Shown here: piece after piece, positions 13,287 to 36,407 of the stretch | Position numbering within the stretch: position 1 is the first letter of the stretch | Layout of the letters: every line of letters starts with the position of its first letter | DNA from: a bacterium | GTDB lineage: Bacteria > NPL-UPA2 > JAUVJM01 | Assembly (NCBI GenBank): GCA_030606215.1 | Contig: JAUWGW010000006.1 | Location: forward strand, 9,336 to 73,335 | Direction: 5' to 3' | Length of the DNA: 64,000 nucleotides | Program-made: the position numbers and the translations under genes | Notes under the pieces: generated by a model | Databases searched by the model: none | Seen by the model: only the letters and a program-made list of their open reading frames with translations | What the model was told of the DNA's origin: nothing

Positions 13287-13765
13287 TTTTTCCCACCTCC
13301 CTTCTCAATTAGCAATTCTCTAATTGTCTGCCCTGACAGGGGTGAGCGCAAATCAGGAGCAATTTCTGCCAGAGGCACAAGGACAAAACTTCTTCTCTCA
13401 AGTTCCCGATGGGGGACCTGAAGTTCTTCCTCTTTTACGAGAAGGTCGCCGTAGAGGAGAATATCAAGGTCAATTATTCTTGGGCCAAAGTGCCTCCCTT
13501 CAGTCCTGCCAAGTTTTTTCTCCAATTTCTTCACGCAGTCCAGAAGTTCCGCGGGCGTGAGAACCGTTTCTATCTCAGCCGCGCAATTCACAAACTTTGG
13601 CTGGTTGAGCACTTCCTCAGGTTCTGTCTCATAGAGAGAAGAAACTCTGCATACCTTAATCTTGACTGTCTCGCGCAGTGATTTAATTGCATTTCTGATA
13701 TTTTCTATACGATTCCCGAGATTTGACCCAAGTCCAAGATATACTTTCACCCACTTCTCTTCCAC
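13253..13765 (-). CDS. folK: 2-amino-4-hydroxy-6-hydroxymethyldihydropteridine pyrophosphokinase
   Basis: HPPK transfers pyrophosphate from ATP to the pterin alcohol in folate synthesis. The 170-residue product shows the family signature in order: VYLGLGSNLGNR at the N-terminus, YETEPEEVLNQPKFVN, and GPRIIDLDILLYGDL near residues 95-110, which carries the paired Asp residues that bind magnesium. It is a stand-alone HPPK, not fused to FolB or FolP. It overlaps dapL by 19 bases and the DUF151 gene at its end. No other folate genes are in the window. Confidence 0.94.
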   Translation of the reverse strand: MEEKWVKVYLGLGSNLGNRIENIRNAIKSLRETVKIKVCRVSSLYETEPEEVLNQPKFVNCAAEIETVLTPAELLDCVKKLEKKLGRTEGRHFGPRIIDLDILLYGDLLVKEEELQVPHRELERRSFVLVPLAEIAPDLRSPLSGQTIRELLIEKGGGKKWLKWNFSESG

Positions 13766-14919
13766 ACAGCAATCCTTTCCACTGCTTCCTCTAATTTTTT
13801 CTTATCTATCGTCAAACTCATTCGTATGAATCCATCGCCATTTTCACCAAATCCTACTCCTGGTGTTGTGGCAACTCCTGCTCTCTCAAGGAGAGATAAC
13901 ACCAAACGCATGGAGCTATATCCTAAGAGAACAGGAGCCCATATGTAAAATGTAGCTTTTGGTTTTGGAATATCCCATCCTATTCTCTTCAACCCGTTGA
14001 CAAATGTGTCTCTACGTTCCTGATAAATTTTCAGAGTCCTCTTTATCTCTTCCTGGGAACCGTTCAGAGCTTCTATCCCTGCCCATTGAATTGCCTGAAA
14101 TATGCCTGAATCAAGATTGGTTTTAACTTTTCCGAGCCCGCTGATGATTTTGCTGTTGCCAACGATAAACCCTATCCGCCAGCCGGTCATATTATATGTT
14201 TTAGAAAGAGAATGAAATTCCACTCCAATTTCTTTTGCCCCATCCACCTCAAGGAAACTCGGAGCGATGTAACCATCATAACAGATTTCAGAATAAGCCG
14301 CATCATGACATACGATTATGTTGTGTCTTTCAGCAAAATTCCGAACCTCCGAGAAAAAAGTTCTGTCTGCAATCGCAGATGTTGGATTGTTTGGATAATT
14401 GAGAAACATCATCTTTGCTTTCTTCGCTATCGTTTCAGGGATACTGCTCAAATCTGGCAGGAAATTGTTTCCCGGGAGTAGAGGCATTGAGAAACATTTC
14501 CCACCGGCAAGTGTAATGCCTGCGCGATATACAGGATAACCCGGATCCGGAATAAGAGCAATATCCCCCTCGTTTATTACGGCAAGTGGAATATGCCCGA
14601 TCCCTTCCTTTGACCCTATAAGAGGGAGAATTTCAAGTTCCGGGTCAAGCTCTACTCCAAACCTCTTTTTATACCATGCGGCAAGACTTATTCTCAACTC
14701 TAACAAACCTTTGTAAGACGCATAACGGTGATTTTCATGCCTGGTGGAGAATTTCTGAAGAGAGCTTACAATGTGTTCAGGAGTAGCTATGTCAGGGTCA
14801 CCTACACCGAGATCAATAATGTCAACTCCCTTCCCTCTAACTTCTCTCTTCATCTCATCAAGTTTGGCAAAAAGATAGGGGGGCAGTTTTTTAAGCTTGT
14901 CTGAAAACTCAATATTCAT
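13747..14919 (-). CDS. dapL: LL-diaminopimelate aminotransferase
   Basis: A 390-residue class I/II PLP aminotransferase. The motifs IIDLGVGDPDIATPEHI, LNYPNNPTSA and SLSKTYNMTGWRIGF (PLP lysine near residue 235) match the LL-DAP aminotransferase branch, which converts tetrahydrodipicolinate to LL-diaminopimelate in one step. Position directly after dapB and the absence of dapD/dapC/dapE in the cluster support this over a generic aspartate aminotransferase. The start overlaps the end of dapB by four bases. Confidence 0.88.
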   Translation of the reverse strand: MNIEFSDKLKKLPPYLFAKLDEMKREVRGKGVDIIDLGVGDPDIATPEHIVSSLQKFSTRHENHRYASYKGLLELRISLAAWYKKRFGVELDPELEILPLIGSKEGIGHIPLAVINEGDIALIPDPGYPVYRAGITLAGGKCFSMPLLPGNNFLPDLSSIPETIAKKAKMMFLNYPNNPTSAIADRTFFSEVRNFAERHNIIVCHDAAYSEICYDGYIAPSFLEVDGAKEIGVEFHSLSKTYNMTGWRIGFIVGNSKIISGLGKVKTNLDSGIFQAIQWAGIEALNGSQEEIKRTLKIYQERRDTFVNGLKRIGWDIPKPKATFYIWAPVLLGYSSMRLVLSLLERAGVATTPGVGFGENGDGFIRMSLTIDKKKLEEAVERIAVWKRSG

Positions 14920-15716
14920 TGTTTTATAACATCCTGCATGTCATATAGTCCAGAACCTGCACCTGCTATAAATCTTATTGCTTTTATCACTCCTCTAACG
15001 AAAACCTCCCGACTTTCTGCACGATGTATCAATTCCACTCTTTCACCTGCTCCAGCAAAAATTACATTGTGTTCGCCGGTGACACTTCCGCCACGCACAG
15101 CATGTATTCCAATTGCCCCTGTTTTTCTCTCTCCTGTAGTTCCCTTGCGACCATATACTGCAATTTCTTTCAAGCTTTTGCCTCTTGCCTCTGCAATAAT
15201 TCCTGCCAACTTCAACGCTGTCCCACTCGGAGCATCTTTTTTCATACGATGATGGGTTTCCACAATTTCTACATCATATTCAGTCCCGAGGATTTTTGCC
15301 GCCTCACCTGCTATCTTAAATAGGAGGTTCACCCCGATACTCATATTTGGTGAAAGAAGCACCGGGATTTTTGAACTAAAATTTTTTATCCTCTCCTTTT
15401 CTTCGTCACTAAAACCTGTTGTCCCGATAACAACCCCATTATTTTTCTCCACTGCTGCTGGTAGATGGGAGAGTGCTGCACGAGGGGTGCTGAACTCAAC
15501 AAGAATATCCCCGCCACTTATAACTTTCTCCATGTCATCCACAAGCAAGATACCAGATTTAACCAAACCTATTACTTCTCCAACATCCTTATTGAGAAAC
15601 GGGTGTTCTTTCTTTTCAACTGCTCCGGCAAGTTCCATGTCGTCTTCTTCAGTCACTGCTTGCAGGAGCAGTTTCCCCATCTGTCCACCTGCTCCGCTTA
15701 TAACTACCCTTACCAT
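14916..15716 (-). CDS. dapB: 4-hydroxy-tetrahydrodipicolinate reductase
   Basis: DapB reduces the DapA product with NAD(P)H. The 266-residue protein starts with the Rossmann motif VVISGAGGQMGK, has ATTGFS-like IGTTGFSDEE, SPNMSIGVNLL, and the catalytic signature ETHHRMKKDAPSGTA near residue 155. The gene lies nine bases after dapA and is coupled to dapL by ATGA. Confidence 0.96.
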   Translation of the reverse strand: MVRVVISGAGGQMGKLLLQAVTEEDDMELAGAVEKKEHPFLNKDVGEVIGLVKSGILLVDDMEKVISGGDILVEFSTPRAALSHLPAAVEKNNGVVIGTTGFSDEEKERIKNFSSKIPVLLSPNMSIGVNLLFKIAGEAAKILGTEYDVEIVETHHRMKKDAPSGTALKLAGIIAEARGKSLKEIAVYGRKGTTGERKTGAIGIHAVRGGSVTGEHNVIFAGAGERVELIHRAESREVFVRGVIKAIRFIAGAGSGLYDMQDVIKQ

Positions 15717-15725
15717 TTTCCCTCC

Positions 15726-16784
15726 TCACTTATATGCAAGCGTATCCCAGTATGCGTCATTTGCGAGTCTTTCCCCAATATCCACTTCATAAGCTTTCTC
15801 TATCGGTTCTAATATCTGCGGATTTTTCTCCCAGACCAGCTTTGCGGCATTGCGGACAATCTCTACACCAGCGCGGGTCATTTTGCCGAGAGGCGGACGA
15901 CACAGCCCCGCAGGCATTCCAAGACCGTTCATCAATGTTTTTATTGGAAGCGGGTTCCTGAATTTATCTTCAACAGCTACTTTTCTTTTCCGCGATAGAG
16001 TTCTCTCATTCTTGCATTTGACAGTCACTATTCCGAATAGCGGCTGAAGCGCTTCTTGAATTGCTCTTGCTTCAGCCTGTTCGCCGGCAATGACCTTCCT
16101 TGTCATTTCCTCAATAGCCCCCGGGACAACATTTGAAATTACAGAGATAACACCTGAAGATTTAATCTTTGGATTAATCATCATCTCAAATGTCAGGTCA
16201 TCATCACCTGAGAGAATGTCAAAATCTTCCCCTATAAGTTCTCTTGTCCTCTTCATCCGCTGCAGATTACCTGTTGCCTCTTTCACAGCCCGTACATTTG
16301 GGCATTCCTGTGAAAGAATTGCAAGGTCCTCGGGACTAATGGCAGTTCCAGTCCGCCCAGGGATTACATAAGGTATAATGTAGATCTCAGGGCAGGTTTG
16401 AGCTATTTTCGCATAGTACTCCCTACGGAGTTCTATAGATGATGGTCCATTATAGTAACAATCTATGAGAAGCACAGATTCAATTCCTACCTCCTTTGCT
16501 TTCCTTGTCGCTTTGAGTGCTTCTTCCGTAGAATTACTCCCAGCCCCTGCTATAACACCACACCTTTTCTGGGAAAGGTCCAAACAGTTACTTATCACCT
16601 GCGTATGCTCCTCCCAGATAAGTGTTGGAGATTCTCCGGTTGTCCCTACAGGAAGGACCCCGGTTATGCTCTGTGAAATCTGGAACTCAATGTTCTTTTG
16701 AAACCCCTCCCAATCAATTTCATTCTCCTCTGTGAATGGTGTCACAAGAGCAGTCCATGCCCCTTCAAACTTCAATCTGCTCAT
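15726..16784 (-). CDS. dapA: 4-hydroxy-tetrahydrodipicolinate synthase, C-terminally extended
   Basis: DapA condenses pyruvate with aspartate semialdehyde, the first committed step to lysine. Catalytic residues of the aldolase family are all visible: T48-T49-G-E51, Tyr139 in IIPYVIPGRTG and the Schiff-base lysine K168 in VRAVKEATG. At 352 residues it is about 60 longer than typical DapA. The extra sequence follows a KCKNERTLSRKRKVAVEDK linker and ends in a tail after residue 300. The canonical Asn after Tyr139 is Val here. Context within dapF-dapA-dapB makes a different NAL-family aldolase unlikely. The start overlaps the end of dapF by four bases. Confidence 0.9.
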   Translation of the reverse strand: MSRLKFEGAWTALVTPFTEENEIDWEGFQKNIEFQISQSITGVLPVGTTGESPTLIWEEHTQVISNCLDLSQKRCGVIAGAGSNSTEEALKATRKAKEVGIESVLLIDCYYNGPSSIELRREYYAKIAQTCPEIYIIPYVIPGRTGTAISPEDLAILSQECPNVRAVKEATGNLQRMKRTRELIGEDFDILSGDDDLTFEMMINPKIKSSGVISVISNVVPGAIEEMTRKVIAGEQAEARAIQEALQPLFGIVTVKCKNERTLSRKRKVAVEDKFRNPLPIKTLMNGLGMPAGLCRPPLGKMTRAGVEIVRNAAKLVWEKNPQILEPIEKAYEVDIGERLANDAYWDTLAYK

Positions 16785-17602
16785 CTATTTACCTCCATGA
16801 TTAGTTCCCCTTCATATACAAATGTAGCGTTGCCTTGCAGGTAAACATCTGTGACTTTTCCATCTTCAGGTTTGAAGTGGACTACTAATGTAGAGTTCCC
16901 TCCCGTCTCAACACTAGTAGGAGGGTTAACCTTCCCCAATAAATGCCCCACAATAGCTCCTGCCACAGCTCCTGTCCCGCAGGCAAGAGTTTCAGCTTCA
17001 ACGCCTCTCTCATAGGTTCTCAGACGGATTTTTCTCCTGCCGACTACCTCAACAAAATCCACATTTGTTCCCTCTGGCTGAAACATTTTATGATAGCGTA
17101 TTTTCCTGCCAAGCTCAATATCTATTGCTTCAAGATTTTCCACAATAAGCACAGTATGCGGGACGCCTGTATTTATGGAACTTGCGGAGTATTCCCTGTT
17201 ATCTATTAAAAGTTTAAAGGAGAGCTTAATCCCGGTGGGTTCATACATTTTCAATTTGACTTCAGTGCCGATAACTTCAGCAGAAACCAATCCTGCAAGT
17301 GTTTCAAGGTTTACCTTCCTGCCGCTGATACCTTTACGGCTCGCAAATGCGGCAATACATCCGGCTCCGTTCCCGCACATCTCTGCTTCACTTCCATCAG
17401 GATTGAAAATACGCATTTTTAATTGGTCGGGTTTCCTGCTTTTTTCAAGAAGAAGCAATCCGTCTGCTCCAACTGAATATGAGCGCTTGCATAACTTAAG
17501 GGCAAGGGAAGCTCTATCATGACAAGTCCCGAATCGGTTATCAATGACAATGAAATCATTTCCGCCTGCACACATTTTAGTAAACTTTAACCCTGATTGC
17601 AT
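16781..17602 (-). CDS. dapF: Diaminopimelate epimerase
   Basis: DapF interconverts LL- and meso-diaminopimelate without a cofactor, using two cysteines. Both are present: Cys76 in AEMCGNGAGC and Cys208 in LACGTGAVAG. The N-terminus FTKMCAGGNDFIVIDNR is typical, though Cys11 replaces the more common His/Gln-Gly pattern. 273 residues is the normal size. It lies two bases after lysA and overlaps dapA by four bases. Confidence 0.96.
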   Translation of the reverse strand: MQSGLKFTKMCAGGNDFIVIDNRFGTCHDRASLALKLCKRSYSVGADGLLLLEKSRKPDQLKMRIFNPDGSEAEMCGNGAGCIAAFASRKGISGRKVNLETLAGLVSAEVIGTEVKLKMYEPTGIKLSFKLLIDNREYSASSINTGVPHTVLIVENLEAIDIELGRKIRYHKMFQPEGTNVDFVEVVGRRKIRLRTYERGVEAETLACGTGAVAGAIVGHLLGKVNPPTSVETGGNSTLVVHFKPEDGKVTDVYLQGNATFVYEGELIMEVNR

Positions 17603-17604
17603 AT

Positions 17605-18837
17605 TTAATATATTTCTCCACGTATTAAATCTTCATATTGTTCTCTTTCCCGTATAAGACGGAATTTATCCCCTTCTACAAGAAATTCAGAACACCTGGG
17701 ACGCGAATTGTAGGTTGAAGCCATTGAAAACCCGTAGGCACCTGCACTGAATATAGCCAAGAAATCCCCCGACTTCACTTTGAGGATTTTTCTATCACGT
17801 GCAAAAAAATCTCCTGTTTCACATATCGGTCCCACAATGTCTGCTGCAATTTCTTCAGACTCTCTCATTTGCACAGGTTTTATCTCATGGTACGCCCCAT
17901 AAAGCGAAGGGCGGATAAGGTCATTCATACCAGCGTCTACTACAATGAATGTCCGTGAACCGGATTCTTTGACGTACAGGACTTTTGTAACAAGTATACC
18001 GGCATTCCCGACAATAAATCGTCCTGGTTCTAAAATAATCTTCAAGCCTCTTTCCTTAACAAGCGGGATGACTGCCTGTGCAAATTCTTCTGCAGTAGAA
18101 GGCTTTTCATCCCTGTAGATTATCCCGAGCCCCCCGCCAATATTGAGCCATTTTAATTCAAAATTTAGCGCCTCTATAAAACCGACCACTTTCCTTATGC
18201 TTTCAGTGAACGGAGTGACACTTGTAATCTGAGACCCGATATGAAGATGGACACCTTTTAGCTCAACATTGTGGAAACTATCCCTCTTCTTGAAAATGTT
18301 ATCTGCTATATCAATTGTTAAACCAAACTTATCTTCACTTTTCCCTGTTCTGATATAAGCATGAGTTTCAACTTCCACGTCAGGATTCACACGAATTGCA
18401 ACCGCGGCTTTCTTCTTCATCCTGCCTGCTATTTCGTTTATGAGATGTAATTCTTGAATTGATTCCACATTGAACATGAGAATGCCTTTATTCAGAGCGT
18501 ATGTTATCTCGTCTTGAGTCTTCCCAACTCCTGCATAGACTATTTTCCCGGGAGCTATACCTGAAAGAAGTGCTTTGAAAAGTTCCCCGCCTGAGGTTAC
18601 ATCCGCACCTGCTTCCATTTCAGCAAGGAGCTTCAGGAGATAGATGTTAGAATTTGCTTTCAAAGAATAGCAGATGAGATGTGGTATTGATGAGAAAGCA
18701 GTATTTAACTTCCTGTAATGGTCGCTGACCGTCTTTCTGCTGTAGAGGTACAGTGGGGTTTTACTCTGAGAGGCAATATCATTAACTTTCACCTTCTCAC
18801 AGATAAGCTCCCCATTTAGATAGTGGAAATCATGCAT
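17605..18837 (-). CDS. lysA: Diaminopimelate decarboxylase
   Basis: LysA makes lysine from meso-diaminopimelate with PLP. The PLP lysine is K60 in CYSLKANSN; the glycine-rich phosphate site WLNIGGGLGI, the ILEPGRFIVGNAG segment and the active-site cysteine region GPICETGDFFARDR are all present. 410 residues is standard. Its start overlaps the end of argH by eight bases, which is where the arginine block joins the lysine block. Confidence 0.96.
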   Translation of the reverse strand: MHDFHYLNGELICEKVKVNDIASQSKTPLYLYSRKTVSDHYRKLNTAFSSIPHLICYSLKANSNIYLLKLLAEMEAGADVTSGGELFKALLSGIAPGKIVYAGVGKTQDEITYALNKGILMFNVESIQELHLINEIAGRMKKKAAVAIRVNPDVEVETHAYIRTGKSEDKFGLTIDIADNIFKKRDSFHNVELKGVHLHIGSQITSVTPFTESIRKVVGFIEALNFELKWLNIGGGLGIIYRDEKPSTAEEFAQAVIPLVKERGLKIILEPGRFIVGNAGILVTKVLYVKESGSRTFIVVDAGMNDLIRPSLYGAYHEIKPVQMRESEEIAADIVGPICETGDFFARDRKILKVKSGDFLAIFSAGAYGFSMASTYNSRPRCSEFLVEGDKFRLIREREQYEDLIRGEIY

Positions 18838-21357: not shown

Positions 21358-21358
21358 T

Positions 21359-22267
21359 TTATCCCCCTAATAATAGTAAAAGAATTGCTTTCTGGACATG
21401 TAGTCTATTTTCTGCCTGGTCAAGCACAACTGACGCCGGACCATCTATCACACCCTCTGTTATTTCTTCTCCCCTGTGTGCAGGTAAGCAGTGCATCACA
21501 AGTGTATCTTTCCCTGTTTTTTTGATAAGTTTCTCAGTAACACGGAAATTACCGAAAATTTCCTTTCTTTTCTCTTTCTCTTCCTCCTTACCCATACTTG
21601 CCCACACGTCTGTATATACGATATCGGCATCCACAACTGCTTCAAAAGCATCTCCAAGGACTTCAATTTTAGAACCGGTTTTCTTCGCCGTCTCTATCGC
21701 AGACTGGACAATTTCAGGTAGTGGTTCATATCCCGGAGGTGTCGCAATTGCCAGATCAAATCCAACTTTCGCTGCTCCATACAGCCAGGAATGAGCAACA
21801 TTATTTCCATCTCCGATAAAAGCCACTTTTATTTTTCTCATCCCCGCCTTCTCCCGTATGGTGTAAATGTCACTTAATACCTGACATGGATGCAACTTAT
21901 CTGAAAGTCCGTTAATCACAGGGACATCTGCCGCCTCAGCCATTTCTACAATTCTCTCATGAGCAAATGTCCTCATAACAATTCCATCAACATAGCGAGA
22001 GAGAACCTTCCCAACATCCTTGACTTGCTCTCTCACACCGAGCTGTATATCATCCTGCCCTAAATAAATACTGGAGCCTCCAAGTTGAAACATTGCCACT
22101 TCAAAAGAGACCCGGGTCCTGGTGGATGGTTTCTCAAAAATAAGTGCCAGGGTCTTCCCCGAAAGTGGTTCTTTTTTAGGGAAGCCTCCTTCTTTTAGAA
22201 GAGAAGTTTTTGAGAAAATCTCTTCTATGAAATCCCTTTCAAGTTCATGAATGGAGATTAAATTCAT
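21359..22267 (-). CDS. argF: Ornithine carbamoyltransferase
   Basis: Makes citrulline from ornithine and carbamoyl phosphate. The carbamoyl-phosphate motif STRTR is at residues 48-52 (FEKPSTRTRVSFE), HPCQVLSD is near 127, and the ornithine-site HCLPAHRGEE is near 255. Length 302 is normal. It overlaps the end of argD by 23 bases, so translation is probably coupled. No carAB is present in the window. Confidence 0.97.
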   Translation of the reverse strand: MNLISIHELERDFIEEIFSKTSLLKEGGFPKKEPLSGKTLALIFEKPSTRTRVSFEVAMFQLGGSSIYLGQDDIQLGVREQVKDVGKVLSRYVDGIVMRTFAHERIVEMAEAADVPVINGLSDKLHPCQVLSDIYTIREKAGMRKIKVAFIGDGNNVAHSWLYGAAKVGFDLAIATPPGYEPLPEIVQSAIETAKKTGSKIEVLGDAFEAVVDADIVYTDVWASMGKEEEKEKRKEIFGNFRVTEKLIKKTGKDTLVMHCLPAHRGEEITEGVIDGPASVVLDQAENRLHVQKAILLLLLGG

Positions 22268-23438
22268 TTAGAACCTCACCCAGCACTTTTATACCTGCGT
22301 CAATTTCTTCCTCAGTAACGATTAGAGGAGGAAGAAAACGGATAACGGTTTCAACTGTACAGTTCAGTAAAACTCCCCGCAAGGCACATTCTTTAACAAT
22401 TTCTTTGCATGGTGTATTCAATTCAATCCCGACCATCAGACCTTTCCCGCGAACATCAGAAATTAGATTGTGTTTTTCTTTGAGCCGGCAGAGTTTTTCA
22501 AAAAGGTATTTCCCGGTAGTTTTTGCTCTTTCAGCAAGATTTTCCTTAAGTATCACTTCAAGAGTTGCGGCACCGGCAGAACATGCAACTGGATTACCAC
22601 CGAATGTTGAGGCATGGCTCCCAGGAGTGAAAACTTCAGAAACTCTCTCAGTTGCAAGTGCCGCTCCGAGAGGGAGACCTCCACCAAGAGGCTTGGCTAG
22701 GGTCATTATATCAGGTTCTATCCCGTAATGCTCATACGCAAAAAGTTTGCCTGTTCTTCCAAGACCGCATTGAATTTCATCAAGAATCAAGAGTAAATTC
22801 CTCTCGTCACATAATCTGCGAAGGCCAACAATGAATTCTGCCTCAGCTGCTCTGACCCCGCCTTCCCCCTGCACAGGCTCAATCATAACTGCTATGGTTT
22901 TGTCCCCTATTACCTTCTCTACAGCAGAAAGGTCATTGAATGGGACATGTTTAAATCCTGGTATAAGTGGTGCAAATCCTTTTTTGATTTTCTCCTGTCC
23001 TGTTGCGGTCAGAGTAACAATGGTTCTCCCGTGAAATGAACCTTCCATTGTGATTATCTCATATTTCCCATTACCAAACTTCCTGCTAAGTTTTATAGCT
23101 GCTTCATTTGCTTCAGCTCCGCTGTTACAGAAGAAAACCTTATCAGCAAAAGAATTCTCAATCAATTTTTTACCGAGTTCTGCCTGAGGTCTGGTATAGT
23201 AAAGGTTTGAAGCGTGAATAAGTATCTCTGCCTGTTTCCTGATGGCATCCACAATTTCGGGATGGCAATGTCCCAGTGTGCTCACAGCTATACCTGCTAT
23301 TAAATCCAGATATTCTTTCCCGTGCGAATCCCATACCTTTGTTCCTTTCCCCCTGACGATACTTATTACGCGCTCGCCATATGTATTCATCAAAAAATCA
23401 TTAGAAAGCTTTTCAAAATCTACTCCGTCGGGGGTCAC
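22245..23438 (-). CDS. argD: Acetylornithine aminotransferase
   Basis: A PLP class III aminotransferase of 397 residues that makes N-acetylornithine; relatives also accept succinyl-diaminopimelate, but dapL makes that unnecessary here. FFCNSGAEANEAAIKLSR, ILDEIQCGLGRTGKLFAYEHYGI and the PLP lysine in TLAKPLGGGLPLGA (near residue 250) are clear. The N-terminal MTPDGVDFEKLSND is slightly extended; starting at the inner Met near residue 17 is possible. Overlaps argB by four bases. Confidence 0.94.
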   Translation of the reverse strand: MTPDGVDFEKLSNDFLMNTYGERVISIVRGKGTKVWDSHGKEYLDLIAGIAVSTLGHCHPEIVDAIRKQAEILIHASNLYYTRPQAELGKKLIENSFADKVFFCNSGAEANEAAIKLSRKFGNGKYEIITMEGSFHGRTIVTLTATGQEKIKKGFAPLIPGFKHVPFNDLSAVEKVIGDKTIAVMIEPVQGEGGVRAAEAEFIVGLRRLCDERNLLLILDEIQCGLGRTGKLFAYEHYGIEPDIMTLAKPLGGGLPLGAALATERVSEVFTPGSHASTFGGNPVACSAGAATLEVILKENLAERAKTTGKYLFEKLCRLKEKHNLISDVRGKGLMVGIELNTPCKEIVKECALRGVLLNCTVETVIRFLPPLIVTEEEIDAGIKVLGEVLNEFNLHS

Positions 23439-24250
23439 TTTACGATCTCCGTCCCTACACCTTTATCTGTAAATATCTCGAGGAGAAGGGAATGGTCGAT
23501 TCTTCCATCGATGATATGCGCTTTCCTGACACCTGCTTTCAAAGCTTTCACACAGGCAAGCACTTTCGGAATCATACCACTGCTTATCACCCTTCCCCTT
23601 ATCAGGACTTCACAATCATCAATTTTTAATGTTGAAATGATAGATTGCTCATTCATTATACCAGGAACATCCGTCATAAGAATAAGTTTTTCAGCCCCTA
23701 ATTTGGCGGCAATTCCTGATGCGGCCTCATCTGCATTTATATTGAATGTTTCATCATTTTCTCCCTTACCGAGAGGAGCAATTACTGGTATAACTTTCTC
23801 CTGTATTATGCTCAAAAGTTTACTGTCTATCCCACCCACCTCACCTACAAATCCGAAATCTTGACTTAGTTTCTTCGCTTTGATAAATTCCTTTCCATTC
23901 AACCCAACTGCTTTCCCGCCCGCTTCTTCAATCAACCCTATAATTTCCCTGTTTATATTCATCAAAGTATTCTCTACAATAGCGAGTGTTTCTCTGTCAG
24001 TCACTCTTAACCCATTTATAAACTTTGACTTCTTCCCCCTCGCTTTCATTTCTTCATTTATGGCTGTGCCTCCGCCGTGGATAAGAATTGGTCTTAGCCC
24101 GACAAATTTCATAAATACGACATCCTTAACAAAATCTTTTCTGAGCTTCTCTCCTCCTCCATACTTAATAACCACAAATTTGTCATGGAAACGCCTGATA
24201 TATGGCAGTGCTTCCATTAATACATTTACTTTTTCTATCGCTCTTTTCAT
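23435..24250 (-). CDS. argB: Acetylglutamate kinase
   Basis: Phosphorylates N-acetylglutamate. The 271-residue product has VVIKYGGGEKLRKDF, ILIHGGGTAINEEM and NINADEAASGIAAKLGAEKLILMTDVPGI. An N-terminal helix of about 25 residues (IEKVNVLMEALPYIRRFHDKF) precedes the kinase core; this helix is typical of arginine-inhibited hexameric enzymes that work with ArgJ. Feedback inhibition by arginine is therefore likely but inferred. Confidence 0.95.
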   Translation of the reverse strand: MKRAIEKVNVLMEALPYIRRFHDKFVVIKYGGGEKLRKDFVKDVVFMKFVGLRPILIHGGGTAINEEMKARGKKSKFINGLRVTDRETLAIVENTLMNINREIIGLIEEAGGKAVGLNGKEFIKAKKLSQDFGFVGEVGGIDSKLLSIIQEKVIPVIAPLGKGENDETFNINADEAASGIAAKLGAEKLILMTDVPGIMNEQSIISTLKIDDCEVLIRGRVISSGMIPKVLACVKALKAGVRKAHIIDGRIDHSLLLEIFTDKGVGTEIVK

Positions 24251-24277
24251 TTTATGAACCAGGCTCTTGTAGTTTTG

Positions 24278-25465
24278 CTATGTATTAGTTCGCACGTACT
24301 CTTCAGTCAAATCACTCGTCCACACAGTATAGTCTTTCTTGCCAAGATTCAGGTAAATAGATACCTTTATCTCTCCGTCTGCTAAAACTTCTTTCACTTT
24401 TCTTTCATCGTAATCTGTCGCACATCCATTCTTCATAACCCGCACATCTCCCATAAAAATTGACAATTTCCGTTCCATTACATTGACTCCTGCGCTGCCA
24501 GCAGCAGATGCTATTCTTCCCCAGTTAGGGTTCTCCCCTCCCAATGCAATCTTGACCAGACTTGAATTAGCGATATTGAAACCTATTTTCTTTGCATCCT
24601 CCTGGCTTTGGGCACCAGCTACTTTTATCTCAATGAACTTTTTTGCTCCCTCGCCATCCTTTACAATCATTTTCGCCATTTTATGCGTTACATAGTTAAG
24701 AGCTTTCTGAAACTCATTAAAGGATTCACTGCCGCTGTGGATTTTTCTGTTACCTGCAATTCCATTTGCAAGGATGAAGACACTATCATTTGTGCTCCTA
24801 TCTCCGTCTACTGTAATTCTGTGAAATGATTTATCAACGGAATCTCTAAAAGCTTTCTCAAGTGCGGATTTGCTTATTGACGCATCGGTTGTTATGAAAC
24901 ATAGCATTGTAGCCATTGATGGGCATATCATACCCGCTCCTTTACCCATAGCGCCAATTGACACACTTTTCCCGCTAACTTCAAAGCTCACGGCTGCTTC
25001 CTTGTGGAAAGTATCAGTGGTCATTATTGCCTGAGCCGCTGAAGTATTTCCCTTGCAGTTAAGGCTTTTCACAAGATACCTGATTCTTGACCTTATTTTA
25101 GCCACTGGCAGGAACTGGCCAATGATTCCTGTTGAGGCGATAAGAATATCTTCCTTGCTTACCCCAAGTTCTCTTGCGACAAGAGCTGTTATGAGTTTTG
25201 CATCTTTATATCCCCTCGCTCCTGTACAGGCATTTGCATTACCGCTATTTACAATAATTGCCCTTGCTTTTGCATCTTGCAGATGTTCCCGGCTGAGTTT
25301 CACAGATGCTGACTGAATTTTGTTTGTTGTAAATACGGCTGAAGCCAGTGTTTCCCCTTCTGAATAAATTAGAGCAAGATCTTTCCCCCTCCTTTTTATT
25401 CCACAGTGGATACCACATGCAGAAACCCCGGCTGGTGCTGTAATTCCTCCAGAAATTTCTTTCAT
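24278..25465 (-). CDS. argJ: Glutamate N-acetyltransferase / amino-acid acetyltransferase
   Basis: ArgJ recycles the acetyl group from acetylornithine to glutamate, and in bifunctional forms also uses acetyl-CoA. The autocatalytic processing site is visible as MICPSMATMLCF with Thr186 as the nucleophile (usual form ATMLxF). GNANACTG and the C-terminal SDLTEEYVRTNT are also typical. At 395 residues it is full length. It is the first gene of a 15-gene run. ArgC is not adjacent, unlike the common argCJBD order. Its promoter lies so close that the mRNA may be nearly leaderless. Confidence 0.95.
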   Translation of the reverse strand: MKEISGGITAPAGVSACGIHCGIKRRGKDLALIYSEGETLASAVFTTNKIQSASVKLSREHLQDAKARAIIVNSGNANACTGARGYKDAKLITALVARELGVSKEDILIASTGIIGQFLPVAKIRSRIRYLVKSLNCKGNTSAAQAIMTTDTFHKEAAVSFEVSGKSVSIGAMGKGAGMICPSMATMLCFITTDASISKSALEKAFRDSVDKSFHRITVDGDRSTNDSVFILANGIAGNRKIHSGSESFNEFQKALNYVTHKMAKMIVKDGEGAKKFIEIKVAGAQSQEDAKKIGFNIANSSLVKIALGGENPNWGRIASAAGSAGVNVMERKLSIFMGDVRVMKNGCATDYDERKVKEVLADGEIKVSIYLNLGKKDYTVWTSDLTEEYVRTNT

Positions 25466-25468
25466 ATG

Positions 25469-25539: not shown

Positions 25540-25596
25540 CCAATGGATAACTACTCTTCTACTTGTAAATATTCGGTGGCCTGTGTTTGAGTCCCT

Positions 25597-25623
25597 GTCA
25601 TTCCTGCGGAAGCAGGAATCCAG
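25597..25623 (+). repeat. Short palindromic repeat, family A
   Basis: A 27-base unit starting GTCATTCCTGCGG and ending AAGCAGGAATCCAG. ATTCCTGC and GCAGGAAT are inverted arms. A near-identical unit occurs inverted at 38561-38585, and a C/G-varied one directly at 38518-38543. Confidence 0.75.
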
Positions 25624-25652
25624 AGTAGATGACCGACATAGATTCTCGCTTG

Positions 25653-26039: not shown

Positions 26040-26421
26040 TAACCACCACCGGTTTCTGCGCAGAATGCGGGTGCTCCTCCCCGCGATACACCCTGAGCCT
26101 GCACAACATTCTCCGACTTAGGCGATTCTTTGGCATCATCCCTTTTACAGCTTTCATCAAAACTTTTTCCGGTCTCTCAGCAATTAGTTTCTGGAAACTA
26201 ACAAGTTTCACCCCGCCAGGGAAACCGCTATGGGAGAAATATTCTTTGTTCTCCCTTTTCTTCCCCGTAAGCACAATTTTCTCGGCGTTTATTACAATAA
26301 CGTGGTCCCCGGCATCCAGGTTTGGTGCATAACTTGCCCTATGTTTCCCGCGCAGTAAACTTACAATCCCTGTAGCTAACCGCCCGAGGACTTTCCCCTT
26401 AGCGTCAATCAGATACCACAT
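26032..26421 (-). CDS. rplM: 50S ribosomal protein L13
   Basis: L13 (uL13): [15 protein letters not shown], the [18 protein letters not shown] segment and [13 protein letters not shown]. At 129 residues it lacks the dozen or so residues that usually precede WYVIDA. The ATG at 26421 lies one base after the stop of the small membrane protein gene, leaving no room for a longer form in that frame with a normal start. The missing N-terminal stretch is not part of the conserved fold. Confidence 0.97.
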
Positions 26422-28360: not shown

Positions 28361-28951
28361 CTACGGATTTACAAGAGCACCCTTTGTTGTCGTGCTACCA
28401 TAACCATCATTAGGAATCTCGGAACTTATATCTGCCTTCTTCACCCAATCTGAATGCCCATCCATGTAGAGTGCATTTATTCCGTCGGTGGAATGGTTGG
28501 TACCAGTAGTTAACTCATCTGCCCAAACCGATGCCGCGCTGCCAGACTGGTCAACTGCCATGGCAGTATCATTCTCTGTGCTGGCATCGATGGCACTCAG
28601 GTTGTAAGCCAGTGCATAGGAAATGTTCCCTGCTGCAAGACTTAAATTATCCGTATCCTTGGTGTCAGTACTGCTCGGGCAAAAGAGAACACCACCTGAA
28701 CAATATGTTCCATCAGTTACCAGGACCTGGAAGTCATTCACTGTGTTTTGGGTAGAACCAGCAGGGTACTCCTCATCATAGTCCATCGAATACATTGCCA
28801 ATCCCAAGGCAATCTGCTTCTGGTTGCTCATACAGACGGCTCTTCTTGCCTGCTCTCTTGCTCTGCTCAATGCCGGCAGGAGCATTGCCGCCAAAATCGC
28901 AATAATTGCGATAACAACTAACAACTCTATCAACGTAAAACCTCTTTTCAT
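28361..28951 (-). CDS. Type II secretion-like pseudopilin
   Basis: A 196-residue prepilin-like protein from the ATG at 28951 (a GTG at 28963 is also in frame but overlaps the GGGGG ribosome site). The leader is [28 protein letters not shown] with Glu at +5, then [19 protein letters not shown]. The C-terminal half contains [13 protein letters not shown], a variant of the DG-type ending of this pseudopilin family. It is the first gene of the operon that runs on to rplM-rpsI, driven by the promoter at 28989-29018. Confidence 0.92.
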
Positions 28952-28988
28952 TTTTGTTGTCACCCCCTTTCAACTTTGGTCTATTCAA

Positions 28989-29078: not shown

Positions 29079-30338
29079 GTGGGCAGGACTGTTGTTGAGA
29101 AGATACTGAGTGAGCACAGCGGGAGAGAGGTTTGCGCTGGAGAATTTACTGTAGCAGCTGTTGATTTAATCCTTGCCCAGGATGGAACAGCGCCGCTTGC
29201 AATTGACGTTTTCAATCAGCTTGGGGTGGGGAAACTGGCAATTCCCGGGAAGTCAGCATTTTTCATAGACCATGCTTCCCCTCCACCGCGTAGAGAACTT
29301 GCAAATGACCATGCGAAAATACGAAAGTTTGTCTCTGAGCATAGTGCAGTTATTTTTGATATAGGGGACGGAGTTTGTCATCAGGTGATGACGGAAAAGT
29401 GTACCTCACCAGGCGATATTCTTATTGGTGCTGATTCACATACAGTAACAGGTGGAGCTGTTGGGGCATTTGCTGTTGGAATGGGTTCAACTGATGTTGC
29501 TGTAGGGCTCGCATATGGCAAGAACTGGTTTCGTGTGCCCGAAACTTTTAAGATTCTTCTAAAGGGAATGTTCAGCAAAGCTGTTTTCCCGAAAGATTTA
29601 ATTCTTCACCTGATTGGTCTCATCAAAGCGGATGGTGCAAACTATAAATGTCTTGAGTTTACAGGAGAATCTCTCAGGCATATGAGTATTCCGGATAGGA
29701 TGACAGTTGCAAATATGTCGGTGGAAGCAGGTGCAAAATGTGGAATATTTCCGTCAGATGAGAGGACAAAAATGTTCCTGACTGAACTCGGCAGGGAAGA
29801 TAAATTCAGAAGAATTGAAGCTGATAAGGATGCTGAGTATGAAGAAACAATTGAAATTGACCTTTCAACTTTAAGACCTATGGTCTCGCTCCCTCACAGA
29901 GTGGATAGAGTTCTGCCTGTAGACGCTCCTGAATTAAAGGAAATAGAAATCAACCAGATTTTTATTGGTAGTTGCACAAACGGGAGAATTGAAGATTTGA
30001 GAATCGCATCCTCCATCATAAAAGGGAAGAGGAAACATGAGAATGTTCGTCTCATTGTAATTCCGGCCTCCCGCCTCACTTTCAAGCAGGCGATGGATGA
30101 AGGGATTCTTGAAATATTCAATGAATTTGGGGCATCTATAAATAATCCTGGTTGTGGTCCGTGCTGTGGAGTTCATCAGGGCATTCCTTCTGATGGAGAA
30201 AATGTCCTTTCTACCTCAAACAGGAATTTCAAGGGCAGAATGGGTAATCCTGAGGCTTTTGTCTATCTGTCCTCACCGGCTACAGCCGCCGCTTCGGCAA
30301 TAACAGGTAGAATTACTGACCCAAGGGAGGGGATGTGA
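29079..30338 (+). CDS. leuC: LeuC/homoaconitase-type dehydratase, large subunit
   Basis: A 419-residue aconitase-superfamily large subunit. I start it at the GTG at 29079 (VGRTVVEKILSEHSG, with GGGGGA upstream), the standard start of the archaeal-type LeuC group; earlier in-frame codons overlap the -10. The 4Fe-4S cysteines are in IGSCTNGRIEDLR (near residue 290) and NPGCGPCCGVHQG (near 350). ADSHTVTGGAVGAFAVGMGSTD is also typical. Annotation as 3-isopropylmalate dehydratase is conventional, but direct linkage to leuD and icd without leuA or leuB suggests it may act on citrate, i.e. as an aconitase. Confidence 0.88.
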   Translation: MGRTVVEKILSEHSGREVCAGEFTVAAVDLILAQDGTAPLAIDVFNQLGVGKLAIPGKSAFFIDHASPPPRRELANDHAKIRKFVSEHSAVIFDIGDGVCHQVMTEKCTSPGDILIGADSHTVTGGAVGAFAVGMGSTDVAVGLAYGKNWFRVPETFKILLKGMFSKAVFPKDLILHLIGLIKADGANYKCLEFTGESLRHMSIPDRMTVANMSVEAGAKCGIFPSDERTKMFLTELGREDKFRRIEADKDAEYEETIEIDLSTLRPMVSLPHRVDRVLPVDAPELKEIEINQIFIGSCTNGRIEDLRIASSIIKGKRKHENVRLIVIPASRLTFKQAMDEGILEIFNEFGASINNPGCGPCCGVHQGIPSDGENVLSTSNRNFKGRMGNPEAFVYLSSPATAAASAITGRITDPREGM

Positions 30339-30832
30339 AACCTACAGGGAGAGTATGGAAATTTGGGGATAGCATCAGCACTGACCTCATCTGCCCTGGA
30401 AGGTATTACCACCTTCGTTCAAATTTGAATGAGCTTGCAAAACATGTTCTTGAAGACGCTCGCAGTGAATTTGCTGGTTGTGTCAAGAAAGGGGATTTTA
30501 TTGTTGCGGGAGCAAATTTTGGTCTTGGTTCAAGCAGAGAGCATGCCGCAATAATAATTAAGATGGCAGGAATCTCAGTGGTTTTGGCAAAATCCTGCGC
30601 GCGGATCTTTTATCGCAATGCGTATAATATTGGGCTTCCCGTAATTTTGTGCGATACTGTTAAAATAAATGACAGGGATGAACTTCGTATAGAGATGGAG
30701 AGCGGAGAGATAAAAAACTGTACCACGGGCGAGACTCTGCATTTCTCTCCAATCCCGCAGATAATGGCAGATATTTTAAAAGAAGGCGGGTTGGTTTCAT
30801 ATTTAAAGAAATATGGGGATATCAAGATATGA
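30335..30832 (+). CDS. leuD: LeuD/homoaconitase-type dehydratase, small subunit
   Basis: The 165-residue swivel-domain partner: [32 protein letters not shown] (the substrate-binding GSSREH motif; the usual Cys before GSS is Leu) and [17 protein letters not shown]. The specificity loop after PGRY reads YHLRS. In characterised archaeal enzymes an Arg in this loop (YLRT) marks the homoaconitase subunit, whereas isopropylmalate enzymes carry YLVY. This favours a tricarboxylic substrate. It overlaps leuC by four bases and icd by four bases. Confidence 0.87.
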
Positions 30833-32019
30833 AATTTGACCGTGTAAAGCCGCCATCAAATGGTGAGAAAATATCCTTCCACGGCGGTAAACTTCAGGTG
30901 CCGCAGAACCCTGTAATTCCTTATATTGAAGGAGATGGTGTGGGGCCGGACATTATGAAGGCTGCAAGGCGGGTTTTTGATTCTGCAGTCGCTAAAGCAT
31001 ATGGCGGCAGGAGAAAAATTATATGGTTTGAAATTTTCGCAGGTGAAAAAGCGAACAACTCCTGTGGAGAATATCTCCCAAAGGATACTCTTGAAGCTAT
31101 AGAGAATTATGTTGTTGCAATAAAAGGCCCTCTGACAACACCTGTTGGAGGCGGATATAGAAGTCTGAATGTTACAATCAGGCAGGAACTTGACCTCTAT
31201 GCCTGTGTGCGTCCTGTGAGATATTTTAAGGGTGTTCCTTCACCTCTTAAACATCCGGAGAAATTAAATGTTGTCATATTTCGTGAGAATACTGAAGATG
31301 TCTATGTTGGAAACGAGTGGGAAGCAGGAACAGGGGAAGCAAAGACGATAATAGAGTATCTGAACACTAAATTCGGAACGAAGATAAGAGAGGCTTCGGG
31401 AATTGGAATTAAGCCGATGAGTGAGTTTGCAACAAAAAGGCTTATGAGGAAAGCTATAAAGTATGCAATTGAGGAGGGCAGGAATTCTATCACTATAATG
31501 CATAAAGGGAATATAATGAAATATACTGAAGGCGCTTTCAGAGAATGGGCGTATGAGGTGGCAAGAGAAGAGTTCCCTGGCCTTAAAATCATAATTAAAG
31601 ATAGAATTGCAGATAGTATGTTCCAGCAAATTCTGACAAGACCTGATGAATATGATATTATTGTTGCGCCCAATCTGAATGGAGATTATATCTCTGATGC
31701 GTGTGCGGCACAGGTAGGAGGTCTTGGCATTGCGCCGGGTGCAAATATGGGGGATTTCGTAGCTCTCTTTGAAGCAACACATGGAACTGCACCAAAATAT
31801 GCTAACCAGGATAAAGTTAACCCGGGCTCTCTTATTCTGTCAGGGGTGATGATGTTTGATTATATAGGGTTGAAAGAAGCATCAAAGATAATTATAGATG
31901 CTTTTCAAGAAACAATTCTGCAGAAAAAGGTCACCTACGATTTAGCGCGCCAGATGGAGGGGGCTGTAGAGCTTAAAACTTCTGAGTTCGCCTCCGCAAT
32001 TATAGAAAATATGAGTTAG
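30829..32019 (+). CDS. icd: Isocitrate dehydrogenase
   Basis: A 396-residue enzyme of the E. coli-like NADP type: [17 protein letters not shown], then [17 protein letters not shown] and [13 protein letters not shown], which contains the isocitrate-binding Ser and Arg residues, [14 protein letters not shown] and the Mg-binding Asp region [12 protein letters not shown] ... NLNGDYISD. It oxidises isocitrate to 2-oxoglutarate, the precursor of glutamate and thus of arginine. Coupled to leuD by a four-base overlap. Confidence 0.95.
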
Positions 32020-32032
32020 AGGAGTAACTATC

Positions 32033-33592
32033 ATGCGAAAGATGAAAATTGCCTGCCTTGTTATTGCCATTTTATTAGTAGTAGCTGGTGTGGCACTGAT
32101 GCACATTGAGTTTTCCCATCCAGAGCTCAGAAACGCAGTTGCTTCAAGATTGAGCGCTTCTCTCGGGATACCTGTGAGAATGGAGAAACTTTCTCTCAGA
32201 CTCTCGCAGGGAATAAAAGTCAAAAATCTCTCATTGGGCGCTGAGGACGCAGAAATTCTCTCTGCAAAAGGGATAATTCTCCAGTGTAATTTCCTTCAAA
32301 TGCTTCGCAGACAATTCAATGTGCGAAGTGTAGTTGTTGAAAAGCCAGTTCTCACATTGCGAAAAGAGCAGATTGGATTCCTGCTCCTTCCACTGATTGC
32401 CACCAGTCAGCATTCTTCTTCCAGTAACTCGGAATTCCAGTTTCAGCTTGCGGAAGCTCGGGTGCGTAGTGGCAAAGTAAATGTTGAGCGTGAAGAAAGT
32501 GGTTCTCTCGCGGTTGATGAAATTGACCTTGAGGTGTCTTCGGAGGGAAAAGGAAAGCCTGTTAAGATTAAAGGAGCGGGGACAATGCAGGCATTTGACT
32601 TCTCCATGCTTGGTTCATATCAAGCAGGTGAGAAGAGCCCGGTCGATTTTAGAATAACTACTGATGTAGACTGGAGCAGAATAAATGAGACACTTAGCAA
32701 ACTAAATCTGAGAGCGCCAGCCAATCTCAAAGGGAGAGGAAAAAGCACAGTTGATATTATCCTCACAGGCAGCCCCGGTGAATTGAATGTAGATGTAACC
32801 AGCGACCTCACAGAAAATGAGCTCTCCTATGGTAACCTGCATAAGCCAGGCGGATTTGTGACAAAATTTAAGATGAGCTCTGTATATTCTTCTGGGAGCC
32901 TAAGAGTGGATGATATTGTTGTGATTATTGGTGAAGGTAGGTTGACCGGCTCGGGGGAGATTTTGCAGGGCGGGAAATATAAATTCTCCATAAAAGGCGA
33001 AAACATAGATATGGAGAAACTTTTGAGTATAAAGGAGAAAGATGAGGTAAAACTTAATATGAGTGGAAAAGCAAAGATGCAAGCGCAAATTGCTAATAGT
33101 GGCGGGGGCACGCAGGGGCTAAATGGAGGAGGTAGTCTACAAATTCAAAATGGTCTGGTTAAATCGTTTTCATGGCTTGAAGACCTTTTTTCAACAATTA
33201 ATCTGCCTGAGCTTATGCCGTTTAAATATACAAAAATTATCGGAAGTTTTAATATTATAGATGGGAAAGTGGATATTACAGAAACTATAGTCCATGGGGA
33301 AGATGCTGTTCTTGCTACTGAAGAAGGGGAAATTGACCTTGTCAAAAAAACGAAGAATATCTCAGCTGACTTAGCACTTGCCCCGCATCTTGTGAAAAGG
33401 CAGCGTTTCAAATTCAAGGAGTTTGACAAATTTTTCTATGTGGATGAGAATGGTTTCGCACATTTAGCCGTTGTCTGGAGAGGACCGCTCTCAAAAGGAA
33501 CTCCTGATTTAACAGCTTCCTTCCTCAAAACAGGAATAAAAAAATATGGCAGCGAGTTACTGGAGAAGTTATTTGGGGAAGATGAGGATTAG
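32033..33592 (+). CDS. AsmA-like envelope protein
   Basis: A 519-residue protein with one N-terminal membrane anchor (KIACLVIAILLVVAGVALM), then AsmA-type sequence: SRLSASLGIPVRMEKLSLRL followed by repeated beta-rich segments and the C-terminal block VKSFSWLEDLFSTINLPEL ... KYTKIIGSFNIIDGKVDITE, where many AsmA proteins end their lipid-transport groove. Such proteins sit in the periplasm between inner and outer membranes. The ATG follows AGGAG. It is 13 bases after icd, so probably in the same transcript, though functionally unrelated. Confidence 0.82.
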   Translation: MRKMKIACLVIAILLVVAGVALMHIEFSHPELRNAVASRLSASLGIPVRMEKLSLRLSQGIKVKNLSLGAEDAEILSAKGIILQCNFLQMLRRQFNVRSVVVEKPVLTLRKEQIGFLLLPLIATSQHSSSSNSEFQFQLAEARVRSGKVNVEREESGSLAVDEIDLEVSSEGKGKPVKIKGAGTMQAFDFSMLGSYQAGEKSPVDFRITTDVDWSRINETLSKLNLRAPANLKGRGKSTVDIILTGSPGELNVDVTSDLTENELSYGNLHKPGGFVTKFKMSSVYSSGSLRVDDIVVIIGEGRLTGSGEILQGGKYKFSIKGENIDMEKLLSIKEKDEVKLNMSGKAKMQAQIANSGGGTQGLNGGGSLQIQNGLVKSFSWLEDLFSTINLPELMPFKYTKIIGSFNIIDGKVDITETIVHGEDAVLATEEGEIDLVKKTKNISADLALAPHLVKRQRFKFKEFDKFFYVDENGFAHLAVVWRGPLSKGTPDLTASFLKTGIKKYGSELLEKLFGEDED

Positions 33593-34082: not shown

Positions 34083-34622
34083 CTATCGCTGTGCAAAATC
34101 CCCCCCACTGATGAGGGATTTTCTATTTACTTCAAGTAATCCATGCCACCTTTCGGGAAGCACATCTTGCAGAAGACGGCATGCTTTCTCGACTGATGTT
34201 AACTTTTTCAACGAGAGATACGCTCCAAGCATGACCATATTTGCAGAGCGGATGTTTCCGGCATCTTCAGCAAGTTTATTGGCAGGCAATTTTATCACCT
34301 TAATATCGCTGCGCTCCGGTTCTTTATCAATAAGGGAGGAATTGAGAATTAATAACCCTTCTTTCTTAAGCCTTGGGCAGAACTTATCAAGTGATGGTTT
34401 ATTCATAACAACAATGGTTGATGGGCTGGAACTGAGAGGAGATGCAATTTCTTCTTTTGAGATAATCACTGTGCAGTTAGCTGTTCCGCCTCTTACTTCA
34501 GCTCCGTATGATGGCATATAAGTGAGGCGATACCCTTCCTTCATTGCAATATAGGCAATGAATTTACCCATAAACATTACACCCTGCCCGCCAAATCCGG
34601 AAATAACTATTTCTTCATGCAT
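34083..34622 (-). CDS. 2-oxoacid:ferredoxin oxidoreductase, gamma subunit
   Basis: A 179-residue gamma subunit: [16 protein letters not shown] at the start, then [22 protein letters not shown], both diagnostic for the POR/KOR/VOR gamma domain. It works with the alpha and beta subunits encoded just upstream to decarboxylate a 2-oxoacid to acyl-CoA while reducing ferredoxin. It overlaps the beta gene by eight bases. Confidence 0.93.
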
Positions 34623-35358
34623 CTTTCAAATTTCCCTTTATAACGCCCAATGGGAAATTGGGTATCATTTTTTCCTCAATCCATTCCTTTGCTTCTTTTG
34701 GCGAAAGTCTCCAGTAACTTGGACATGGGGAGAGAATCTCAACAAGAGAGAATCCTTTATTCTCAAGTTGAACCTGGAAAGCCTTCTTTATAGCCAGTTT
34801 GGTTTTCCTGATATTTGCAGGATTACTGATAGCTGTCCTGCAGAGAAAAACTGTTCCAGGGAGGATAGCAAGTAATTCTGAAACTTTTAAAGGGTATCCT
34901 GCACTCGAATCTCGTCCGCCTGGAGTAGTAGCTGTTACCTGTCCGAGCATTGTAGTTGGTGCCATCTGTCCGCCTGTCATTCCATATACTGCATTGTTAA
35001 CAAAAATTACAGTTATCCTTTCCCCTCTATTTGCGGCATGGATTATTTCCGATGTCCCTATTGCGGCAAGGTCACCATCACCCTGGTAGGTAAAAACTAC
35101 CCTCTCCGGAAGAATACGCTTTATTCCTGTAGCAACGGCGGGTGTTCGTCCATGTGCGGCTTCTGTCATATCTATATTGAAGTAATCATATGCAATAACG
35201 GCGCATCCTACAGGCGCAACTCCAATAGTCTTCTCCCTGATACCGAGTTCATCAATCACCTCTCCGAGCAGGCGGTGAATCACACCATGCCCGCAGCCAG
35301 GACAATAATGTGTCCAGACATCTTTCATTGATTCGGGAAGCGAGAAAACTTTTTTCAT
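34615..35358 (-). CDS. 2-oxoacid:ferredoxin oxidoreductase, beta subunit (TPP-binding)
   Basis: From the ATG at 35358 the product is 247 residues; the longer frame to 35439 runs back into the alpha gene. [14 protein letters not shown] at the N-terminus and [14 protein letters not shown], with [17 protein letters not shown], form the thiamine pyrophosphate and magnesium site. Start and stop of the alpha gene overlap (ATGA). Confidence 0.93.
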
Positions 35359-36407
35359 AGAAGTTCTCTTATCTTCCGACTGATTTCCTCTGCAGTAGGT
35401 ACTCCACCACCTGTTCTTCCATAGAAATGAACAGGACATTTTCCACTGACAGCTAATCTAACATCTTCCACCATCTGCCCTGCGCTCATCTCAATAACGA
35501 GAAAACAATTTATCCGTGAGGATACATCTGCTATAACCTTTTCAGGAAATGGCCAGAGAGTTATCGGTCTTATAATTCCTGCTCTTATCCCTTCACTCTT
35601 TACCTGGTTTAGAGCCGCTTTTGCAATACGGGCTGAGGTCCCATAAGCAACAAGGATTATCTCAGCATCATCAATCCCTTCCTCTTCGTAGAGAATTTCC
35701 TTTTCCTTCATAACTCTGAATTTATCCTGAAGGTGTCTATTGTGTTTTTCAAGTTCCCCTTCTTTCAGAATAAGTGAGCGGATGATTCTGGGGGAACGGC
35801 CTTTTGCACCTGTTAGAATCCAGTCTTTCTCAGGGCAAGCAAGCTTGCCAACCCTTTTTTTGATTTTAACAGGTTCCATCATCTGTCCGAGGATACCATC
35901 TCCAAGAATAAGCACAGGATTTCTATATCTGTCAGCTAAATCAAAGGCAGCTCCCATGAGTTCAGCAAGTTCCTGGACATTAGCAGGTCCAAAAACTATC
36001 AAATTGTAATCTCCGTGTCCTCCTCCTTTTGTTGCCTGGAAATAATCGGATTGCGCAGGAGCGATATTACCAAGTCCCGGGCCTCCGCGCATCATGTTCA
36101 CAATTACAGCAGGAAGTTCATTCCCTGCAAGGTAGGATATTCCCTCCTGTTTCAGACTTATGCCGGGACTTGAGGAGGAAGTCATGGCACGTGCGCCGGC
36201 AAGAGAAGCTCCAAACACCATACTAATAGCCGCCAGCTCACTTTCTGCTTGTATGAATACACCGCCCTCCTCAGGCATCCTTCTTGCCATATAGGCAGTC
36301 AACTCATTCTGAGGAGTTATTGGATACCCGGCGTAGAACCTGCATCCTGCCTGGATTGCAGCTTCCCCAACAACCTCATTCCCGCACATTAATACCTTTT
36401 CACTCAT
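35355..36407 (-). CDS. vorB: 2-oxoacid:ferredoxin oxidoreductase, alpha subunit (VorB type)
   Basis: A 350-residue alpha subunit. [41 protein letters not shown] and the [17 protein letters not shown] segment match the VorB group, usually named 3-methyl-2-oxobutanoate:ferredoxin oxidoreductase, though close relatives use 2-oxoglutarate or other 2-oxoacids. In most genomes a small ferredoxin-like delta subunit gene precedes it; here the preceding gene is a membrane glycosyltransferase, so the electron acceptor subunit must be encoded elsewhere or absent. Confidence 0.88.

Follow-up and report, generated by a model that had tools for sequence, protein, structure and literature searches.

The LeuC-like and LeuD-like genes that directly precede an isocitrate dehydrogenase gene in the 64,000-nucleotide stretch analysed here (the window) are predicted from sequence to encode a heterodimeric aconitase feeding 2-oxoglutarate synthesis, a reading to which we assign a probability of roughly 0.86. 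In the proposed pathway, a Re-type citrate synthase of the HMGL family, encoded at another locus of the genome, would form citrate from oxaloacetate and acetyl-CoA. The two LeuCD-type subunits would associate into a [4Fe-4S] enzyme that converts citrate to isocitrate by dehydration to cis-aconitate followed by rehydration, and the NADP-isocitrate dehydrogenase (ICD) encoded by the next gene would yield the 2-oxoglutarate from which glutamate, arginine and further amino acids are made. These steps would constitute the oxidative half of a split TCA cycle, with isomerisation in the leucine route, and probably also that of citramalate, left to a separate LeuCD of a leuACDB operon.

The locus and its neighbours

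The large-subunit, small-subunit and dehydrogenase genes overlap by four bases at each junction, and our open reading frames and coordinates agree with those of the first-pass annotation (Table 1), which had also remarked correctly that neither leuA nor leuB lies beside the pair. A longer version of the LeuC-like gene, starting from a TTG at 29040, is also possible. Within NCBIfam, the large subunit matches PRK00402 and TIGR01343 above their cut-offs (549 and 535 bits), the 549-bit match being to the 'aconitase/3-isopropylmalate dehydratase large subunit family'; the small subunit matches the LeuD/DmdB model TIGR02087 at 189 bits (cut-off 109). The domains that a single-chain aconitase carries on one polypeptide of at least 640 aa (domains 1-3 plus 4) are here divided between products of 419 and 165 aa, and the single-chain aconitate hydratase model NF005558 (cut-off 612) scores 390.6 bits with the large subunit and 80.8 with the small.

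Table 1. Features of the window (positions count from its first letter).
Feature	Position	Strand	Remarks
panC, dapL, dapB, dapA, dapF, lysA, argH, argG, argF, argD, argB, argJ	11307-26421	-	compact run
dapL-dapB-dapA-dapF-lysA	13747..18837	-	DAP lysine route
argF-argD-argB-argJ	21359..25465	-	arginine biosynthesis; consumes glutamate/2-oxoglutarate
Type IV pilin-like protein	28361-28963	-	N-methylation motif, DUF1559 match
LeuC-like large subunit of proposed two-subunit aconitase	29079-30338	+	GTG start, GGGGGAG upstream, 419 aa
LeuD-like small subunit (swivel domain)	30335-30832	+	GTG start, 165 aa
NADP-dependent isocitrate dehydrogenase (ICD, icd)	30829-32019	+	ATG start
AsmA/YhdP-like protein	32033..33592	+	starts 13 bases after icd
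2-oxoacid:ferredoxin oxidoreductase gamma, beta, alpha	34083..36407	-	alpha best fits VorB family PRK07119

The dehydrogenase is a true ICD: it scores 632.7 against the NADP isocitrate dehydrogenase equivalog TIGR00183 (cut-off 567.3), shares 61% identity with E. coli Icd, carries Ser112 and Asn114 at the positions of Icd S113 and N115, two residues that LeuB lacks, and keeps the NADP residues K344, Y345, V351, Y391 and R395. The arginine genes in the window supply an obvious consumer for 2-oxoglutarate, and the earlier suggestion that the pair provides isocitrate for icd and 2-oxoglutarate for the arginine pathway is supported. Around the locus, the AsmA/YhdP-like gene may be co-transcribed with icd, and the 2-oxoacid:ferredoxin oxidoreductase is a possible user of 2-oxoglutarate or of branched 2-oxoacids. 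The compact panC-dap-arg run is followed by genes reading as ribosomal proteins S9 and L13, and the pilin-like gene lies immediately upstream of the LeuC-like gene in divergent orientation.

Active-site residues and phylogenetic placement

We compared the pair with the substrate residues of mitochondrial aconitase (mAcn; Q72, R447, R452, R580, S643-R644 and others) known from mAcn structures and UniProt. All cluster and substrate residues checked are present (Q72, D165-H167, C358, C421, C424, R447, R452, R580 and S643-R644). In the large subunit, Cys299, Cys359 and Cys362 are the [4Fe-4S] ligands, Gln34 corresponds to Q72 and Arg382/Arg387 to R447/R452; in the small subunit, Arg28 corresponds to R580 and SSREH at 66-70 to S642-S643-R644. 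Among 18 mAcn active-site positions compared in the large subunit, nearly all are invariant across the superfamily and only Q72 discriminates. This position is Gln in 38/39 sequences of two clades, class I (the window type) and class II, and in all six single-chain aconitases; it is Asn in 35/35 bacterial leucine-type sequences and His in E. coli LeuC and in both the isopropylmalate isomerase (IPMI) and the homoaconitase (HACN) of M. jannaschii.

The specificity loop of the small subunit provides another discriminating position. In IPMI and HACN this loop sets substrate preference, as stated in a passage of PMC7308503 that cites Jeyakanthan 2010. Its class I form is PGRxxHLRSNLxEL, and the loop Arg occurs in 14/14 class I sequences, in the four single-chain aconitases whose loop is readable (LPLRSNIP, LKYRSNIP) and in 0/23 leucine-type sequences. 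The register was taken from a HMMER alignment, in which LKYRSNIP of a related aconitase aligns ungapped to LKFRGHLD of 1aco with the Arg at residue 580; MAFFT misplaced the pig mAcn fragment, which lacks upstream sequence. The window protein has the same spacing between the Arg and a downstream conserved Phe as the aconitases have, whereas in methanogen HACN (YLRT) it is one residue longer. The first-pass annotation had read YHLRS in this loop, which is indeed there within YYHLRSNL, and had likened it to YLRT; the Arg stands, but its register is 1-2 residues off the HACN Arg and matches that of aconitase LRSN (mAcn R580).

Class II small subunits (L031, L032, L084, L085, L087, L089-L093, L095, L104) have the loop SGRYKF..DMKEL with no Arg, although class II shares with class I its association with ICD and synthase genes and the Gln equivalent to Q72; the pair at L090 is from Coriobacteriaceae EMTCatB1. 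Either the role does not strictly require the Arg, and the class II loop reads citrate in another way, or class II acts on a different substrate.

In a quick tree of 103 rows, class I (24 rows) forms a starred clade with support of 100, adjoins class II (98) and stands apart from the leucine clade and from both M. jannaschii enzymes. A phylogeny with characterised homoaconitases had been proposed in the first-pass annotation; M. jannaschii HACN lies outside the window clade both here and in the smaller tree described below. That tree also joined the aconitases to the long-branched E. coli LeuC, probably an artefact. When the loop was removed and the longest rows were left out (57 rows), support for class I was weak (45/0), and the single-chain aconitases grouped next to class I, a split supported at 98/99. 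Against an aconitase profile, class I large subunits reached 333-368 bits and every other LeuC-type sequence at most 332.5. These profile scores and the 57-row placement suggest that class I is close to the aconitases in sequence, which is not proof of ancestry. Constraint tests gave p-AU values of 0.325 for classes I and II together, 0.253 for aconitases with M. jannaschii HACN and 0.29 for aconitases with the leucine-type; as these alternative attachment positions were not rejected (p-AU 0.25-0.33), we make no claim of ancestry. A survey of archaeal fusions proposes that AcnA may have arisen when HACN or IPMI subunits were fused (PMC11237513). That class I is instead the living form of the two-subunit enzyme that was fused into single-chain aconitases, the ancestor being a heterodimeric aconitase and not a homoaconitase or IPMI, is an idea we consider conceivable but unlikely.

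Genome content and recurring gene neighbourhoods

The host genome (1.52 Mb, 34 contigs, 92.9% complete) was searched family by family. It holds exactly two PF00330/PF00694 gene sets: one is the window pair, and the other lies on contig C29 within an ilvC-leuA-leuC-leuD-leuB run that contains a complete leuACDB operon (ilvC named from its translation). The C29 LeuC passes the IPMI equivalog cut-off of TIGR02083 (642 against 610.65), whereas the window LeuC scores 461.1; the window pair also lies outside the leucine clade. No single-chain aconitase was found in the host genome, as neither of its two PF00330 genes has such a length, although at 92.9% completeness one could sit in the missing part. 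The arrangement that the first-pass annotation had named as contrary to its reading, a canonical aconitase with no second LeuCD, is therefore not what the genome contains; its suggested search returned the reverse.

Si-citrate synthase (PF00285) was likewise absent from the host genome. The HMGL family (PF00682) has three members there: LeuA, a citramalate synthase (C11) and a 417-aa protein on contig C8 that passes no equivalog cut-off. The C8 gene has the context expected of a Re-citrate synthase, with HMGL family membership, no Si-citrate synthase in the genome and linkage to aconitase and ICD genes in relatives, and on these grounds its product is probably a Re-citrate synthase. Annotation frequently mislabels genes for such enzymes as homocitrate or isopropylmalate synthase (PMC12016533).

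Nine genomes of the phylum were sampled. All of them lack a PF00285 Si-citrate synthase and carry a C8 synthase orthologue, and the aconitase-family frames matched in them do not exceed 453 aa. In two (G001, G002) the synthase, 70% identical to that on C8, lies directly upstream of the LeuC orthologue with a four-base overlap, and LeuD follows; two others (G004, G005) have the order LeuC-LeuD-ICD. Together these arrangements link synthase, LeuCD and ICD in one pathway.

Gene-context analysis placed related pairs in Melainabacteria, Chloroflexota/Dehalococcoidia, Zixiibacteriota, Actinomycetota, Syntrophorhabdales, Omnitrophota, Margulisbacteria/WOR-1 and Pelotomaculum; no relative of the pair was found in viral contigs. 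The full order synthase-LeuC-LeuD-ICD occurs in a Gastranaerophilales operon (L067), and L077, from Dehalococcoidia, reads LeuC-LeuD-ICD..synthase. A second type of HMGL synthase takes the synthase position at L070 and L104, and a KorABC-like set lies directly upstream of LeuC-LeuD at L081. An ICD-type neighbour is present at 15/32 loci of the window-type clades versus 0/28 leucine-type loci, and a LeuB-type neighbour at 0/32 versus 13/28 (Fisher p about 1e-5, the loci not being independent). In a Clostridiales locus (L176), an HMGL synthase, a 646-aa canonical aconitase (NF005558, 1018 bits) and ICD stand in a row, so that the canonical enzyme fills the slot that LeuCD holds elsewhere. In Thermodesulfovibrio (L182), ICD and synthase adjoin and a canonical aconitase is encoded elsewhere in the genome.

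Phylogenetic profiles, although drawn from genomes that are not independent samples, follow the same division. No aconitase-family frame of at least 600 aa was found in any of the 32 genomes carrying such a LeuCD pair; comparison genomes reached via leucine-type loci have one in seven of eight cases (641-876 aa). Si-citrate synthase is absent from 27 of the 32; 19 have a C8-type synthase, and another five have the second HMGL type. At a Syntrophorhabdales locus (L073:4179-5996), a very diverged 605-aa HMGL protein is encoded just ahead of a class I LeuC-LeuD-ICD set, at a distance of four bases, and is a candidate Syntrophus-type Re-citrate synthase; the Syntrophus enzyme described by Kim and colleagues in 2013 is reportedly of similar size.

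Two further groups of loci were noted. Ten, mostly from Gastranaerophilales (L066, L069, L071, L074, L078, L086, L088, L096, L097, L033), have a LeuC-like gene of the two clades, and a profile search of all ORFs in their fetched flanks found no LeuD-like gene, so the small subunit is either elsewhere or very diverged. LeuC-like proteins of about 600 aa and 35-38% identity (L110:2016-3824, L134:4158-5966, L139:2600-4402), encoded near ordinary LeuC-like genes and, in two loci, near a LeuB-like gene, are another aconitase-superfamily variant.

Alternative functions and comparison with known systems

A homoaconitase acting on homocitrate and homoaconitate, in an alpha-aminoadipate lysine route or in chain elongation, would account for HacB2_Meth being the best match of the small subunit and for the fit of the large subunit to TIGR01343, the 'homoaconitate hydratase family'; some homoaconitases, reportedly including those studied by Jia and colleagues in 2006, also hydrate cis-aconitate. 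Nonetheless, both subunits score under the homoaconitase equivalog cut-offs (HacB2_Meth 196.3 against 230, HacA_Meth 425.1 against 550), the partner dehydrogenase passes the ICD equivalog and falls far below homoisocitrate models, and no homocitrate-pathway partner accompanies the pair. With a DAP route in the window, homoaconitase is not needed for lysine synthesis. The Gln in place of the His of M. jannaschii HACN, the differing loop register and the position of that enzyme outside the clade also argue against this assignment, which we regard as very unlikely. Dual specificity is known among related archaeal enzymes (Yasutake 2004 and Jeyakanthan 2010, as cited in a passage of PMC7308503), and a broad isomerase handling citrate, homocitrate and isopropylmalate alike could be imagined on that precedent; given that class I has the aconitase residue at both discriminating positions and that the same genome encodes a dedicated LeuCD, it is highly improbable.

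Least credible is a second isopropylmalate or citramalate isomerase for leucine or isoleucine synthesis that stands beside icd by chance. It would share the fold and two-subunit organisation of the window pair, and the citramalate synthase does need an isomerase, but the leuACDB operon has its own LeuCD, ICD and Re-citrate-synthase neighbours recur across phyla where LeuB never does, and the substrate residues are of aconitase type. The first-pass annotation had allowed for citrate or homocitrate as substrate; we favour citrate, in view of the true ICD, the DAP lysine route and the linked Re-citrate-synthase-like gene.

Compared with known enzymes, the proposed aconitase has the same Q72, R447, R452, R580, S643-R644 and three cluster cysteines as mitochondrial aconitase and the single-chain aconitase of about 645 aa (NF005558/PRK07229), and shares with the latter the LRSN loop and the gene slot between HMGL synthase and icd. 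It differs in being encoded by two overlapping genes with no linker, in scoring below the family's curated threshold and in an identity of 36-41%. The architecture, domain order and lengths are those of IPMI LeuCD, the large subunit being about 45% identical to the genome's own LeuC, but the window pair has Gln for Asn at the Q72 position, the Arg loop, a separate clade and no leuA/leuB context. Methanocaldococcus homoaconitase HacAB (MJ1003/MJ1271) also has two subunits and an Arg in the small-subunit specificity loop; it differs in its His at the Q72 position, the other Arg register, its homoisocitrate dehydrogenase partner and its clade. The Re-citrate synthase route to glutamate is known from Clostridium kluyveri, Dehalococcoides, C. 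difficile, Syntrophus and Heliomicrobium. It likewise uses an HMGL-family synthase instead of Si-citrate synthase, then aconitase and isocitrate dehydrogenase to reach 2-oxoglutarate; here, in contrast, we attribute the aconitase step to a heterodimer of LeuCD type, of which we found no published description among open-licence papers.

Many uncultured anaerobes appear to have neither citrate synthase nor aconitase, so that their glutamate route looks broken. Judging by the sequences, the two-piece enzyme most likely occurs in many little-studied anaerobes that lack a single-chain aconitase. In genomes of several phyla this gap would be closed by a heterodimeric aconitase that bears the annotation LeuCD or 'homoaconitate hydratase family' and works with a Re-type citrate synthase that has gone unrecognised. 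Two residues could serve to correct annotation: the large-subunit Gln at the Q72 position and, for class I only, the small-subunit LRSN Arg. Class I pairs are also candidates for how single-chain aconitase arose.
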